Source: a virus
Virus record (IMG/VR): IMGVR_UViG_3300030406_004514
Coordinates: 1-25,109 of that record
Strand: one strand, 5' to 3'
DNA length: 25,109 nt
Position numbers and translations under genes: made by a program. Numbering within the stretch: position 1 is the first letter of the stretch; every line of letters begins with the position of its first letter. The notes below the pieces were generated by a model. It did not search any database. It had not been told where the DNA came from and saw only the letters and a list, made by a program, of their open reading frames with translations. This document shows, piece after piece, positions 8,556 through 23,654 of this stretch.

Positions 8556-8584
8556 ATTATATGAAACTTATTGACAGAAGTCAA
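8556..8584 (-). promoter_or_regulatory. Sigma70-type promoter of gp43
   Basis: TTGACT (8584-8579) and TATAAT (8561-8556) have a 17-bp spacer. The TGA of TTGACT is the stop codon of the upstream membrane-protein gene. The expected start is near 8549, about 20 nt before the gp43 ATG. Confidence 0.82.
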
Positions 8585-8850
8585 CTAAAGGCTTTAGATA
8601 TTAAATAGAAACATGAAAGCATAAAACCTAAAGCTGATAATTGAACTAAAGATGCTATTGCTACAAACATTAATTGTTTATCACCCCACCAATCAAGCTC
8701 ATTCTTTTGCCAAGCTTCAGCTTCTTCTGGAGTAGCATCTACGGTTTTATTTAATTGAAGTTCGAGTTGTTGTTCGTATCCACTCATGACATTAGCTGCA
8801 TCATCAACTGCTGAGGGAAGTTCTCTTTTCCAAGCGTCTAATCTTCCCAT
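8581..8850 (-). CDS. Small membrane protein, last gene of the cytochrome unit
   Basis: This 89-aa protein has a charged, helical N-terminal part (residues 1-57, with KNELDWWGDKQ at the boundary) and one C-terminal transmembrane segment (about 60-85, hydrophobic and ending KAFS). It looks tail-anchored with the bulk in the cytoplasm. I do not recognise a family. Its start overlaps the cytochrome c gene by 13 bp, so the two are probably translationally coupled and may work together at the membrane. Its stop codon is inside the gp43 promoter. Confidence 0.75.
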   Translation of the reverse strand: MGRLDAWKRELPSAVDDAANVMSGYEQQLELQLNKTVDATPEEAEAWQKNELDWWGDKQLMFVAIASLVQLSALGFMLSCFYLISKAFS

Positions 8851-9284
8851 GCTGCTTCTGCTATAAAGTCTGATATACTTTGTATATCGTTATCTGATAA
8901 CATGCCAGCTTGAGCCCACATAGTAGAGCTCATTGCACCTCTTTGTTCTCTATTTTTATATGCATATAGAGCTTCAGCAATATACTCTGAAGACTGTCCT
9001 GCTAATTTTGGGAACGCTCCAACTCCCTGGCCCTCCTGACCATGGCACGCCGCACAACCGGCCCATAACGGCCGTATTGATGAAAAGGGATCGGTTGCCG
9101 CTTCGGCGGCTTTAGCCTGAAGCTGTTCAACAACCGTTCCATGTACTTTAACATATTCTTCATAGCATTCGCCAGTACATCCTTGTACTCTTTCGTATCC
9201 TTTATATTCTAAATTAGCATAAGTAAAGCTAATTAATCCATACATAAATGCACAGATAAAAAGTGGAGTTGTAAAATTGTTCAT
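8838..9284 (-). CDS. Exported cytochrome c (class I, single haem)
   Basis: Residues 1-23 form a signal peptide (hydrophobic core PLFICAFMYGLISF, likely cleavage after TYA). The haem site is CAACH (77-81), with G-x-G and PKLAGQ following as in c553/c5-type cytochromes. The segment GAMSSTMWAQAG offers M118 or M122 as sixth ligand, and the C-terminal helix (DIQSISDFIAEAAW) is typical. An extra Cys pair, C36 and C40, lies before the fold and could form a disulfide. It would be a periplasmic electron carrier. It sits between tiny membrane-protein genes under a late promoter. Codons around the haem site are markedly GC-rich against the rest of the window. Confidence 0.9.
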   Translation of the reverse strand: MNNFTTPLFICAFMYGLISFTYANLEYKGYERVQGCTGECYEEYVKVHGTVVEQLQAKAAEAATDPFSSIRPLWAGCAACHGQEGQGVGAFPKLAGQSSEYIAEALYAYKNREQRGAMSSTMWAQAGMLSDNDIQSISDFIAEAAWED

Positions 9285-9434
9285 TTATTGTTTAGATATT
9301 TTTTCTATATCTTCTTTCCAGGCTTCTGCATCTTTTATTGCTCTTAAAGCTCCGCCTGGATTACCATCAAGCATAATACCAGTCATCATTAGTGAATAGA
9401 GAAAACTTGGCATTAAATTCTTGATAAAGTTCAT
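9285..9434 (-). CDS. Small hydrophobic protein, 49 aa
   Basis: I choose ATG 9434 rather than an upstream TTG (9467) because the ATG lies three bases after the stop of the 44-aa gene. The protein has a hydrophobic N-terminal segment (about residues 3-22, MPSFLYSLMMTGIML) and a charged helical tail (AIKDAEAWKEDIEKISKQ). This suggests an N-terminally anchored peptide or a poor signal sequence. No family is recognised. Its stop TAA directly abuts the ATG of the cytochrome c gene, which supports real translation within the unit. Confidence 0.6.
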   Translation of the reverse strand: MNFIKNLMPSFLYSLMMTGIMLDGNPGGALRAIKDAEAWKEDIEKISKQ

Positions 9435-9436
9435 AG

Positions 9437-9571
9437 CTATATTATAGGGGTTATTGCCATTACACAAAAGAGAAACATAAGAACTAATGCAGTTATTTCG
9501 GCTGCAGATGTTATATCTTCCATGGTGATTTTTTGTGTATTTTCGATGAATCGTTTAGTCAATTCAGTCAT
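9437..9571 (-). CDS. Tiny membrane protein, 44 aa, first gene of the cytochrome unit
   Basis: Reading from ATG 9571 gives a 44-residue protein: a polar start (MTELTKRFIENTQK), an acidic linker, then one transmembrane helix (about 26-44, ALVLMFLFCVMAI) that ends with the protein. AAAGGG lies about ten bases upstream, a weak ribosome-binding site. It is the first reading frame after the late promoter at 9609-9616, and its stop is two bases from the next ATG. Size and topology resemble small accessory subunits of respiratory complexes, but no sequence match is claimed. Confidence 0.6.
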   Translation of the reverse strand: MTELTKRFIENTQKITMEDITSAAEITALVLMFLFCVMAITPII

Positions 9572-9608
9572 AGCATTATACCCTTTATTAATATTATATT
9601 ATTACTTT

Positions 9609-9616
9609 TATTTATA
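9609..9616 (-). promoter_or_regulatory. T4-type late promoter (TATAAATA)
   Basis: The minus strand reads CTTATAAATAAAAG, containing the exact T4 late-promoter octamer TATAAATA. It lies ten bases past the Hsp20 terminator and 37 bases before the ATG of the 44-aa gene, which is the right place to start the cytochrome unit. In T4 such promoters need gp55, gp33 and the gp45 clamp. Confidence 0.7.
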
Positions 9617-9625
9617 AGACGAAAA

Positions 9626-9648
9626 GGGTCAGCCACACGGACTGACCC
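9626..9648 (-). terminator. Rho-independent terminator after Hsp20
   Basis: The minus strand reads GGGTCAG-T-CC-GTGT-GG-CTGACCC followed by TTTTC. This is a 7-bp stem extended by two inner G-C pairs around one bulged base, with a GTGT loop and a short T run. It begins 24 bases after the Hsp20 stop and insulates Hsp20 from the late unit. Confidence 0.85.
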
Positions 9649-16631: not shown

Positions 16632-17396
16632 TTATGTCACCTCATATTTACTTACTGCATATTCCCAACTAAAGGAATCAACATACTCAATAGGATCCTT
16701 ATAACCTGCTCTTACAAAGTTCATTATTCTTTCAGCACAGGAAGGACATATACCACAAGATTTACTATCTTTAGGATTATAGCATGTAATAGTACTCGAT
16801 AGCAACTCTTCCTTACCCATCTCATAAGCAAGATCTATTTCTTGCCTTTTAGATAATTCACTAAACGGAGCTATAACTTCCACTTTATGAGTCCTATTTT
16901 GTACTGCTACTGCATTTAAACTATCTACAAATCGTTGAGAAGTATCCCAATAACCATATTCATCATGAACTTGAAGTCCAGTAAATACATGAGAAGCTTT
17001 CGCTACTTCGGCTACTGACATAGTCAACGATAGCATAATTAAGTTACGAAAAGGTACATAAGTTGGCGGCTGAGGATCACCTAATACATCTTTTATATTA
17101 GGCATTTCAACATCAGTACCACCTATATTAGCTGACATAGGTTTAGCTATATCACCTAATATTTCTAAATTAAGTATCTTATGTTTTATTCTTAACTTAT
17201 TAGTTAACTCAAACGCTTTCTCTAATTCTATTCTCTGCTTCTGGCCATAGTCGTAGCTTACTGCAGACACTTTATCTGCACCGTACTTTTTAACTAATAA
17301 CATAGTCATTACAGATGAATCTAAACCACCGGAGAGAACGGCTAAGACGTTCTTATTAGTATCTGGTAATCTATCTAAAGCTTCGTTTAAGTTCAT
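16632..17396 (-). CDS. queC: 7-cyano-7-deazaguanine synthase QueC
   Basis: From ATG 17396 the protein is 254 aa. It has the PP-loop SGGLDS (22-27), SYDYGQKQRIEL, YVPFRNLIML and a C-terminal zinc site C-x8-C-x2-C-x2-C (ITCYNPKDSKSCGICPSC). QueC converts 7-carboxy-7-deazaguanine to preQ0 using ATP and ammonia. I reject a TTG start at 17429 because the ATG overlaps the upstream stop as ATGA. The gene is between a 63-aa gene and the amidotransferase, within the 7-deazaguanine cluster. Confidence 0.94.
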   Translation of the reverse strand: MNLNEALDRLPDTNKNVLAVLSGGLDSSVMTMLLVKKYGADKVSAVSYDYGQKQRIELEKAFELTNKLRIKHKILNLEILGDIAKPMSANIGGTDVEMPNIKDVLGDPQPPTYVPFRNLIMLSLTMSVAEVAKASHVFTGLQVHDEYGYWDTSQRFVDSLNAVAVQNRTHKVEVIAPFSELSKRQEIDLAYEMGKEELLSSTITCYNPKDSKSCGICPSCAERIMNFVRAGYKDPIEYVDSFSWEYAVSKYEVT

Positions 17397-17584
17397 AGTT
17401 TCTTTACACCTAGTACATAATTTTCGCAACAGTCTTCAGCCCAATATTCTGATTTACCAGGATAAGTTTCTCTTGCAACTTCTTTACCATCTACAAAAAA
17501 GATAGCTCCATAACAGCCATTATCTATAAAAGTTTTTGCTGTCTTTTCACCATCCATATATTCGCTTAAAAATTGTTCTGCCAT
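17393..17584 (-). CDS. Hypothetical protein, 63 aa
   Basis: This small acidic protein has no membrane segment. Features are FIDNGCYGAIFFVDGKEVARE, a likely beta-hairpin, and EDCCENYVLG with an adjacent Cys pair; three cysteines in total. I know no family. It lies between queF (stop abuts) and queC (ATGA overlap), so it is probably translated with them. Confidence 0.65.
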   Translation of the reverse strand: MAEQFLSEYMDGEKTAKTFIDNGCYGAIFFVDGKEVARETYPGKSEYWAEDCCENYVLGVKKL

Positions 17585-20333: not shown

Positions 20334-20590
20334 TCAAAATACTCTTCTATTACATCTACTAGCTCTTTATAATGAGCTATTTGTTTAAATTCATCTTCCA
20401 ATACCTGCATTACATCAGGATGGTCTGCGACGCCTACTTGCCTTTGAAGTAAGATCTCGGCATTCATTATATGCCTTGATACTTGCGATAAGAAATAATT
20501 TTTACTATGCTGTAATAAATCATCTCTAAAGCTAGTTCTTAAATCAGTAGCAGTTATATTTACGTCTGATATATCGTTATTTGCTTTCAT
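20330..20590 (-). CDS. Small conserved helical protein, 86 aa
   Basis: The protein is alpha-helical with no membrane segment. It includes SRHIMNAEILLQRQVGVADHPDVMQVLEDEF and ends DVIEEYFE. I recall similar D-H-P-D-V/I-M containing small proteins in marine T4-like phages, without a function. It overlaps dpdA by 4 bp (ATGA) and follows folE directly. Confidence 0.72.
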   Translation of the reverse strand: MKANNDISDVNITATDLRTSFRDDLLQHSKNYFLSQVSRHIMNAEILLQRQVGVADHPDVMQVLEDEFKQIAHYKELVDVIEEYFE

Positions 20591-21315
20591 TAGCCTTTTC
20601 CTCCAGCATATTGCTGTTGTAGCATAATGTCATCGAAGAATTCCTTCTTAACATCTGCATCGTTAAATCTACCTTTTAATACAGTAGTCTGAGTTAGAGA
20701 AGAATGAGCCATAATACCTCTATTCTCGCAACACCCATGAACTGCATGAATATACACAGCTAGATCTTCCGTGTCAGTTGCTTCTTGCAACTCTCTTACA
20801 ATCTCATTACAGAGTTGTTCTTGTAAAGTACCTCTACGGGCAACCCATTGCGCTATTCTGGTATATTTAGATAATCCAATCACCATCTTATTAGGAATAA
20901 TTCCAATATAAGCTATACCTACAACAGGCTGATGATGATGCGAGCACATAGATCTTAGTTCAGATCTAACTACAAGCATACCATCATACTTATCATCACC
21001 TTCATTAGGGAAAGCAGTAGCAGCAGGCTTTTCAAAATACCTACCTCTCATTAGCTCGTTTATATACATCTTAGCTAACCGTTTAGGAGTACCCATAGCA
21101 TTAGGATCATTTTTCCAATCAATTAATAATCTATGTAATACTTCTTCGAAAGCTTCAGCTACTTCTTCTATAAGTCTCTCTCTTCCACTTTCGGTTAATA
21201 CTTCAGCTATATTATCATTAGACCAGGCTCTTAGACCTTTTTCTTTTATTGCTTTCCAATATAGCTCATGTACCTTTTGATCATTCATATATGTATTATA
21301 CTTGCTTTTACTCAC
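20590..21315 (-). CDS. folE: GTP cyclohydrolase I (FolE)
   Basis: The protein contains the zinc and catalytic elements RSMCSHHHQPVVG (C124, His126-128) and HAVHGCCENRG (C195/C196), and the VIGLSKYTRIAQWVARR segment. It converts GTP to 7,8-dihydroneopterin triphosphate, the first step to 7-deazaguanines. The start is a GTG at 21315 sharing one base with the queD stop (TAGTG). An ATG nine codons later (21288) has no ribosome-binding site. It adjoins queD. Confidence 0.94.
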   Translation of the reverse strand: MSKSKYNTYMNDQKVHELYWKAIKEKGLRAWSNDNIAEVLTESGRERLIEEVAEAFEEVLHRLLIDWKNDPNAMGTPKRLAKMYINELMRGRYFEKPAATAFPNEGDDKYDGMLVVRSELRSMCSHHHQPVVGIAYIGIIPNKMVIGLSKYTRIAQWVARRGTLQEQLCNEIVRELQEATDTEDLAVYIHAVHGCCENRGIMAHSSLTQTTVLKGRFNDADVKKEFFDDIMLQQQYAGGKG

Positions 21316-21767
21316 TAGTTCAAGTCCCTTTTAAAAATAGCACTATTAGCTCCATGCTCTCTTACTTCAACACTTACACAGTAGCACCTATTGTCAGTTT
21401 TTTCTCTAACAATTTTATCTGCTTCATGAAAAGCATGCTCTGCAAACTTCTCACACCCTACACCTTCCATGATTACTATATCAATTAATCCCATCTTATC
21501 TAGATCACAAAAAGTATCTATAGCTGGATCATCAACATCAACAGCAGTCTTATGGTCAAAGTTATCCTTTAACCATTGCTTTAGTTCACCTAAGTCACCA
21601 AAGTCAACAGCCCAATTTTTATCATCTAATTCACTAGCTGCAAAAGTAAAGGTAAATGCTAATGCATATCCATGAATCAAACTACAATGACTATGAGTAG
21701 CGCCAGGCTGCCTAAACGCACAAGATAACCCTGCCTCATGTCCATACGTTTTAGTACTATAAAACAT
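21315..21767 (-). CDS. queD: 6-carboxytetrahydropterin synthase QueD (PTPS family)
   Basis: This 150-aa T-fold protein has THSHCSLIHGYALAF (C28, H32), the internal FGDLGELKQWLKDNFDHKTAV and the C-terminal CVSVEVREHGANSA with the pterin-binding Glu. It would make carboxytetrahydropterin from the FolE product. The usual C-x3-H-G-H is C-x3-H-G-Y here, and the early zinc His is not where expected; nearby H25 and H27 may compensate. It lies between the phosphoribosyltransferase and folE. Confidence 0.88.
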   Translation of the reverse strand: MFYSTKTYGHEAGLSCAFRQPGATHSHCSLIHGYALAFTFTFAASELDDKNWAVDFGDLGELKQWLKDNFDHKTAVDVDDPAIDTFCDLDKMGLIDIVIMEGVGCEKFAEHAFHEADKIVREKTDNRCYCVSVEVREHGANSAIFKRDLN

Positions 21768-22224: not shown

Positions 22225-22777
22225 TATTTGGATCCACGTTTTCATCACAGTACCAAGTTACTAAAACAGTTCTATAACCTTTTAGTACTTTACTAACACT
22301 ATGCTTTAAATTATGAGCATATTCAATAGTCTCTCCGACTTGTTGCTTAACTATAACAGGAGTAATTGTATCTCCTTCTCTATAAGATTTTAGGTCGTAT
22401 CTATTGATAGTATTATCATTTACTTCCATATCTCTTTTATAGTGAGGCTCATATACTATTATATCTCCACCTTCTAAATCATCTGATTTATCTATTAGAG
22501 TAATAGCTGTCTTTTTAACTAAGTTGTTATCATCGCAATGAGCTCTAGCAAAAGCACCAGGAGTATATCTTAGATAATATTGAGAGAATATTTTTAAGCC
22601 GTCGTGATGTAATTCTTTTTCTATCCAGTCAAAAGTATTCGGATGAATAGTCTCTGTATAGAATAGATTATAATATATTTTAACATACTTTAGCAACCTT
22701 TGATTGCTATTCCAAACCTTATTAGCTTTTTCTAATATATGAGAGTGATCTACTCTATTATAGTGCTTAGACTCCAA
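22202..22777 (-). CDS. 2OG-Fe(II) oxygenase, prolyl-4-hydroxylase-like
   Basis: The iron ligands are visible as ARAHCDD (H80, D82) and LKHSVSKVLKGYRTVLVTWY (H159, with R169 as the 2OG ligand). LEGGDIIVYEP sits between them, as in P4H-type phage proteins. The substrate is unknown; its placement between queE and the phosphoribosyltransferase raises the possibility of acting on the modified base. The start is a TTG at 22777 overlapping the queE stop; no ATG lies near the N-terminus, so the exact start is uncertain. Confidence 0.82.
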   Translation of the reverse strand: MESKHYNRVDHSHILEKANKVWNSNQRLLKYVKIYYNLFYTETIHPNTFDWIEKELHHDGLKIFSQYYLRYTPGAFARAHCDDNNLVKKTAITLIDKSDDLEGGDIIVYEPHYKRDMEVNDNTINRYDLKSYREGDTITPVIVKQQVGETIEYAHNLKHSVSKVLKGYRTVLVTWYCDENVDPNNVEEKRN

Positions 22778-23654
22778 TTAGATTACCCCATAAGTAGGTA
22801 TGAACTCTAGCTGATACATTATAGCCTCTTTTAAAAGCTTCTTTAGCAACATCACCATCGACTAGCTTCTGACCTTCTACAGTAGCTCCTACAGGCATTA
22901 TCCATATAGGCCAATCTACTCCATGATATCTAAATTTTTCTATAGTATCTTCTAACTCTTCCCAAGTTTCAGGTTTACCGTCTACAACAAACTTAAGCTG
23001 ACCCTTATTAGTCATTTGCGCATAGGTAGCTACTACCTCAGGTCTTATAGCTCTTTTAGTAGTTTCACCAGATACATTATGTAATTTAGGACTACAAGAT
23101 ATAAATAACTCACTACCCCATACATCTCTATACTCTTGCCAGAACTCAATAAACTCTGGTCTTAGAGTTTGAGTACCATTAGTCTCATAAGTTACATATC
23201 TAGGATAGTCTCTTTCTTCTATCCAATACTTCATCATATTCATGCTACATATCTGCGCATGCTTCATTAAAGGTTCACCACCAGTAAAGCACATATGTCT
23301 ATCACCCCAGGCGCCTTTATTCCATTTATTAGTAAATTCTTTTCTTACTCTATTAGCTATTTGCTCTGCTGTACCTTTATGCTGTAAGTGTTTAAACTTC
23401 TTAGACCATGAATAAGAACTATCACATCCGTATTCCCATACAGGTAGTTCTTCCATACGATTAACTTCTATAAGATCAAAGTCTTTATAAGGAAGCTTAT
23501 AAGTAGAAGGGTCAGTAGGATCGTCTTGACCAAATCCATTGCACTGCAAGTTACATAAAAAGAATCTTAACCACGCAGTAGGTCGTCCAGTATAGTGACC
23601 TTCTCCTTGAATAGAGTCAAATATCTCAGAATAAGCATATGTCATCTCGCTCAT
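22767..23654 (-). CDS. queE: 7-carboxy-7-deazaguanine synthase QueE (radical SAM)
   Basis: The protein starts with YSEIFDSIQGEGHYTGRPT and LRFFLCNLQC, the QueE hallmark. CFTGGEPLM and FISCSPKLHN are the SAM-binding and late elements. The iron-sulfur cysteines are spaced C34-x3-C38-x38-C77, the third being in YGCDSSYSW, instead of the common C-x3-C-x2-C. This looks like a loop insertion, and the protein is 295 aa against about 210-225 for typical QueE. It makes 7-carboxy-7-deazaguanine from carboxytetrahydropterin. The start overlaps the flavodoxin gene by 4 bp (ATGA). Confidence 0.93.
   Translation of the reverse strand: MSEMTYAYSEIFDSIQGEGHYTGRPTAWLRFFLCNLQCNGFGQDDPTDPSTYKLPYKDFDLIEVNRMEELPVWEYGCDSSYSWSKKFKHLQHKGTAEQIANRVRKEFTNKWNKGAWGDRHMCFTGGEPLMKHAQICSMNMMKYWIEERDYPRYVTYETNGTQTLRPEFIEFWQEYRDVWGSELFISCSPKLHNVSGETTKRAIRPEVVATYAQMTNKGQLKFVVDGKPETWEELEDTIEKFRYHGVDWPIWIMPVGATVEGQKLVDGDVAKEAFKRGYNVSARVHTYLWGNLIGV

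Follow-up and report, generated by a model that had tools for sequence, protein, structure and literature searches.

Within the 25,109-nt stretch of DNA analysed here (IMG/VR virus record IMGVR_UViG_3300030406_004514, positions 1 to 25,109; hereafter the window), four small genes lie together on the minus strand, encoding a one-helix protein (S44), a hydrophobic protein (H49), a cytochrome and a tail-anchored protein (TA89) (Table 1). All four abut or overlap, with the TA89 and cytochrome genes sharing 13 bases, and the open reading frame coordinates confirm the placement proposed in a first-pass annotation made from the letters alone. H49 is counted here from its ATG, and an upstream TTG at 9467 would give a protein of 60 aa. 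A copy of TATAAATA, a candidate T4-type late promoter, stands 37 bases before the S44 ATG, which is a promoter distance for a T4-type late unit. Between hsp20 and this motif we found a strong intrinsic terminator that the first-pass annotation had not mentioned; the segment 9605-9672 folds with a predicted energy of -19.4 kcal/mol (z -5.1). At the other end, a sigma-70-like site for polB is the top-scoring one in the scanned region and overlaps the end of TA89, so that polB need not depend on the four-gene unit. Given the terminator after hsp20 and the separate polB site, the four genes look like a single transcription unit of their own, insulated by the terminator.

Table 1. Features of the four-gene unit and its flanks (positions in the window)
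Feature	Coordinates	Strand	Description	Basis
S44	9437..9571	minus	membrane protein, 44 aa, one helix; first in the unit	ORF
H49	9285..9434	minus	hydrophobic small protein, 49 aa from ATG	ORF
Cytochrome	8838..9284	minus	148 aa, probably membrane-anchored class I cytochrome c	PF00034, alignment and AlphaFold2
TA89	8581..8850	minus	89-aa tail-anchored protein, one predicted helix near the C terminus	profile family
TATAAATA	9609..9616	minus	candidate T4-type late promoter	exact match
Intrinsic terminator	9626..9648	minus	3' of hsp20; 9-pair stem GGGTCAGTCCGTGTGGCTGACCC, then TTTT	
Sigma-70-like polB promoter	8556..8584	minus	TTGACT-17-TATAAT; 11/12 consensus bases	

Elsewhere in the window, the same virus carries further redox genes, namely a peroxiredoxin (PF08534, 12842-13348) and a flavodoxin (PF00258, 23651-24187). 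Read by eye, the genes at 16632-17429, 20590-21315, 21315-21767 and 22767-23654 look like QueC, FolE, QueD and QueE, respectively, a set belonging to the 7-deazaguanine pathway and suggesting that the phage DNA is modified.

The first-pass annotation took TATAAATA as an exact late promoter. The motif is indeed present, but by itself it is weak evidence, because chance predicts more copies in the window (7.2) than were found (three). Upstream of genes in HTVC008M and in two cytochrome-bearing T4-like viruses (G002 and G017), TATAAATA ranked first among 56 permutations of its letters, which makes it probable that viruses of this group have a late signal of T4 type. A conserved late promoter at S44 was nevertheless ruled out, since only 3 of the 19 distinct loci with S44 have the motif before that gene. 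The cytochrome gene itself lies behind nrdB in most relatives. Late expression is thus possible in this virus and is not a property of the family.

The predicted cytochrome matches PF00034 (E 2.3e-9; 38.9 bits against a cut-off of 21.3) and carries a haem motif, CAACH, at residues 77-81, preceded by CxGxC at residues 36-40. Met122 lines up with the Met region conserved in cytochrome c554, is invariant in a 20-member alignment (A1) and is probably the axial (distal) haem ligand. Across the distinct members of the family that were examined, CAACHG, the upstream CxGxC and MWxQA are invariant (82/82). The N terminus is hydrophobic in 66 of these 82 proteins, and an AxA-like cleavage motif occurs at the expected place in only 16. 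The AlphaFold2 model (mean pLDDT 72) consists of an N-terminal helix (residues 5-28), two short helices and then the haem domain, with low confidence around the haem motif, perhaps because the model contains no haem. Given the modelled helix and the scarcity of the cleavage motif, we prefer to describe the protein as membrane-anchored, its N-terminal helix probably remaining uncleaved. The first-pass description as an exported class I cytochrome c therefore stands as to class, on the strength of PF00034, CAACH and the putative distal Met, and is amended as to location.

Structure searches returned cytochromes c as the top matches, but these were weak (TMt about 0.6, E 0.01-0.1). Matches to solved structures and plasmid sequences were restricted to about residues 55-147, and the N-terminal part with the CxGxC segment had no match in the PDB or plasmid searches. 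The alignment to cytochrome c554 (2zzs) spans residues 71-140. With the c554/c552/c4 group as a whole (2zzs, 1cno, 8uf3), the phage protein has in common CxxCH, the distal Met region and the core fold over residues 71-143, whereas the additional N-terminal helix and the CxGxC segment set it apart. Assignment to cytochrome c4 was rejected, as that protein has two haem domains and the phage protein a single CxxCH; assignment to CcoP, subunit III of cbb3 oxidase, was likewise rejected (TIGR00782, 21.7 bits against 179.95; one haem motif). In alphaproteobacteria, cytochrome c-y consists of an N-terminal membrane anchor, a linker and a single periplasm-facing haem domain, and has been proposed to act between bc1 and oxidase. 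The phage protein would resemble this description in its probable anchor, linker and single-haem domain, and differs in that its linker comprises two short predicted helices with the conserved CxGxC.

In the viral collection, 396 loci matched the cytochrome, and the best 80 of these were kept. No record of the GenBank phage set matched, and the plasmid proteins with similarity to it cover only residues 55-147. A scan of GTDB genomes gave three matches, each on a contig whose phage-type genes stand in the order nrdA/nrdB-cytochrome-grx; these contigs (L082, L083 and L084) belong to metagenome-assembled genomes named Planctomycetaceae TMED10, Synechococcus CPC35 and a Sphingobacteriales bacterium, and look like misbinned phage DNA. 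Within the collections searched (viral, GenBank phage, GTDB scan and plasmids), the family thus appears to be virus-specific. A cellular origin of the contigs was ruled out, because both the window and G002 hold T4-type replication genes, with structural genes in addition in G002, and because the "bacterial" matches are phage contigs. Carriers include the T4-like viruses G002 and G017 (130-146 kb), the 250-kb phage G018, and G003 from a lineage whose portal is of the PF04860 type. On the 129.7-kb contig of G002, a lone tRNA-Ala(TGC) lies near the contig end (L093, 4594-4669) and could help to identify the host. The tree of the cytochrome is poorly resolved; along its well-supported branches the gene-context labels switch at least six times, no more than a hint that the gene has been reshuffled between contexts.

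The replication genes of the window are of T4 type, and most of the core genes in common with HTVC008M are about 44-59% identical to their counterparts there; the polymerase is about 51% identical to those of cyanomyoviruses. With HTVC008M and the pelagimyophages (Kyanoviridae), the virus also has gene order partly in common around polB, the clamp gene and hsp20. The label "pelagiphage" used in the first-pass annotation was not confirmed: HTVC008M, a cultured pelagiphage, carries none of the module's genes, being without the cytochrome, AOX (alternative oxidase), TA89, S44, H49, the DoxX-like protein and the two-helix protein described below. The word cytochrome is absent from the text of the main survey of pelagimyophages (PMC7029224). 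Respiratory-chain genes, in the form of cbb3-oxidase-like reads, have been reported from a marine viral size fraction (PMC3474794); these are annotated reads without genome context, and may or may not belong to the phage cytochrome family. In the literature covered, from which subscription journals and preprints are largely absent, we found no report of such a phage cytochrome c family or of an adjoining phage AOX.

In the window, the four-gene unit has neither an oxidase nor any other respiratory gene beside it, and the respiratory reading is drawn from the context of its relatives. Most relatives have the cytochrome near nrdB and glutaredoxin, the glutaredoxin gene adjoining it in 39 of 83 loci, and this vicinity could be a nucleotide-metabolism cluster in which the cytochrome merely rides. 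In several independent arrangements, the neighbour is AOX: of 79 AOX loci, 28 also hold the cytochrome within the stretch fetched, and in 13 of the 79 the two genes overlap or are direct neighbours. The identity of AOX is clear from PF01786 (E 1.6e-66 and 1.2e-67) and from readable di-iron motifs of the LET, EAENERMH, EEEA and DEEHH types. PTOX was considered and ruled out, since the phage protein has about 54% identity to AOX from proteobacteria, mostly alphaproteobacteria, and matches the PTOX PHROG 4235 only weakly (E 1.4e-4); the cyanophages of the phage collection gave no AOX match at E 1e-5. Because AOX takes its electrons from quinol and not from cytochrome c, the two proteins need not act in one pathway. 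In phage C48C1 (OQ984149; L246), an AOX annotated as a hypothetical protein (26279-26830) adjoins T4-type clamp-loader genes, and the 12.6-kb stretch read there holds no TA89 or cytochrome.

In five loci, a DoxX-like protein adjoins the cytochrome, and in G018, the most informative example, a single gene run encodes S44, the cytochrome, a secreted EF-hand protein, a pseudoazurin, TA89, a ferredoxin, AOX and a one-helix protein. The pseudoazurin scores 132.7 bits with TIGR02375, an NCBIfam equivalog with a cut-off of 109.85, and matches the PetE PHROG (E 8.5e-13). These neighbours (AOX, DoxX-like protein, pseudoazurin and ferredoxin) support the earlier suggestion of an electron-transfer unit aimed at respiration. 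The DoxX-like protein and pseudoazurin could instead be partners of the cytochrome in another periplasmic oxidation, for example of sulphur or C1 compounds. We regard this as highly improbable: the loci read showed no recognisable gene for a dehydrogenase, a Sox protein or methanol oxidation beside the cytochrome, and the scores with the SoxX and cytochrome cL models were far below cut-off.

The small membrane proteins form families of their own. TA89 (as a profile family) is present in all nine large cytochrome-bearing contigs, not always adjoining the cytochrome, and has no Pfam, NCBIfam or PHROG match at the limits used. An iterated profile of S44 recovered 19 distinct relatives, the lowest at 46 bits compared with 13.6 for the best of 5000 shuffled decoys, nearly all of them encoded just 5' of a gene for TA89, the cytochrome or an EF-hand protein. 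The H49 family comprises six distinct proteins, which mostly occur in S44-H49-TA89(-AOX) units; H49 adjoins the cytochrome only in this virus and in L001. The usual order is S44, then an EF-hand gene, H49 or the cytochrome, then TA89 and then AOX. Since loci were fetched because they contain the cytochrome, AOX or TA89, co-occurrence is not independent evidence, and what is informative is how closely, and in what constant order, the genes lie within loci of 4-12 kb. The exact S44-H49-cytochrome-TA89 set was seen only in this virus and its near-identical copy L001, and the four-gene block that the first-pass annotation had proposed to look for in other pelagiphages was not otherwise recovered as such. 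Loci L235-L237 have S44, a 42-aa gene, the cytochrome and TA89; the 42-aa gene was not taken as an H49 homologue, its profile score being no better than those of shuffled sequences. From these comparisons of gene content and order, the four genes of this virus are best read as a mix-and-match version of a wider module.

Crude dN/dS estimates suggest purifying selection on the cytochrome (median 0.34) and AOX (0.16); the values for TA89 (0.59) and S44 (0.72) come from divergent pairs with uncertain starts. A two-helix neighbour protein gave a poor AlphaFold2 model (pLDDT 62) and had no credible relative among solved structures. Two further groups of one-helix genes were seen. In L186, L177, L167 and L219, a gene of 52-61 aa with a C-terminal motif like LTLPxLLPxxI lies between a gene of 160-180 aa and S44. 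In L028, L071, L072, L083, L084, L155, L163, L165 and L247, a family of 54-86 aa with the C-terminal motif ..GTKGI.K..Y..TAK..RE..IV adjoins the cytochrome or AOX. The first-pass annotation had likened the small proteins to accessory subunits; they are real families kept near these genes, but their status as oxidase subunits was not borne out.

We consider it probable that the unit is a version of a portable electron-transfer module, carried by marine phages, that keeps or reroutes the aerobic respiration of the host. An uncleaved N-terminal helix would anchor the cytochrome in the inner membrane. The protein would receive its haem in the periplasm from the c-type maturation system of the host and ferry electrons from one host complex to another, the likeliest route being from bc1 to a terminal oxidase. 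S44, H49 and TA89 may be small helpers that tether an electron carrier to the membrane or to a complex of the host, the carrier being the cytochrome here and AOX elsewhere. The AOX of relatives would oxidise quinol directly, without proton pumping. In either form, the phage would supply extra or replacement electron carriers to the aerobic chain of its host, the common aim being that quinol oxidation, NAD+ regeneration and ATP supply keep going while the host is dismantled.

The occurrence of several one-helix proteins per unit, together with the candidate late promoter and insulating terminator found here, might also fit interference, in which the cytochrome and its companions block or divert the host chain so that the proton motive force falls at a late stage of infection, which would help to time lysis or exclude other phages. 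This seems to us very unlikely, because a pure inhibitor would not need the haem-ligand residues that every distinct member retains, and because the gene mostly lies behind nrdB and not beside lysis or structural genes. Another possible role is that of a safety valve, with AOX and the cytochrome draining surplus electrons to oxygen alongside phage peroxiredoxin and glutaredoxin, which would keep the quinone pool from becoming over-reduced and protect phage DNA from oxidative damage as it replicates. AOX lies near the cytochrome in many phages, a peroxiredoxin is encoded in the window and also near the module in L062 and G003, glutaredoxin is a frequent neighbour as noted above, and PTOX has been described as such a valve against over-reduction in cyanophage studies (PMC5082946). 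Yet the unit in the window has a cytochrome without an oxidase, and HTVC008M has peroxiredoxin and glutaredoxin genes and no module; we therefore judge this role rather unlikely.

The closest parallel to the preferred reading, a module that maintains or redirects respiration, is found in cyanophages, from which phage electron-transport genes are known as a class (PMC5082946). There, PTOX and petE likewise provide the chain of the infected host with a quinol oxidase and electron carriers encoded by the phage. The set described here differs in combining a c-type cytochrome, a proteobacterial-type AOX and small membrane proteins of no described family, and the gene lists read showed no photosystem gene. 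By analogy, the module suggests that phages adjust host respiration during infection much as cyanophages adjust photosynthesis. A bolder version, which we hold only tentatively and think doubtful, is that unrelated marine phages share a mobile, virus-specific unit in which cytochrome c or AOX and the undescribed one-helix proteins form a phage-made complex on the bc1 or oxidase of the host and take over respiration.

Control of photosynthesis by phages is textbook knowledge, whereas direct genetic evidence that they control respiration is scant for marine heterotrophs, which are far more numerous. The tiny families S44, H49 and TA89 and the two-helix protein may represent new partners for respiratory complexes. 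With its links to AOX, pseudoazurin and DoxX-like proteins, this widespread and virus-specific family of cytochromes c makes it a testable question whether infected heterotrophs respire differently by way of electron carriers supplied by their phages.
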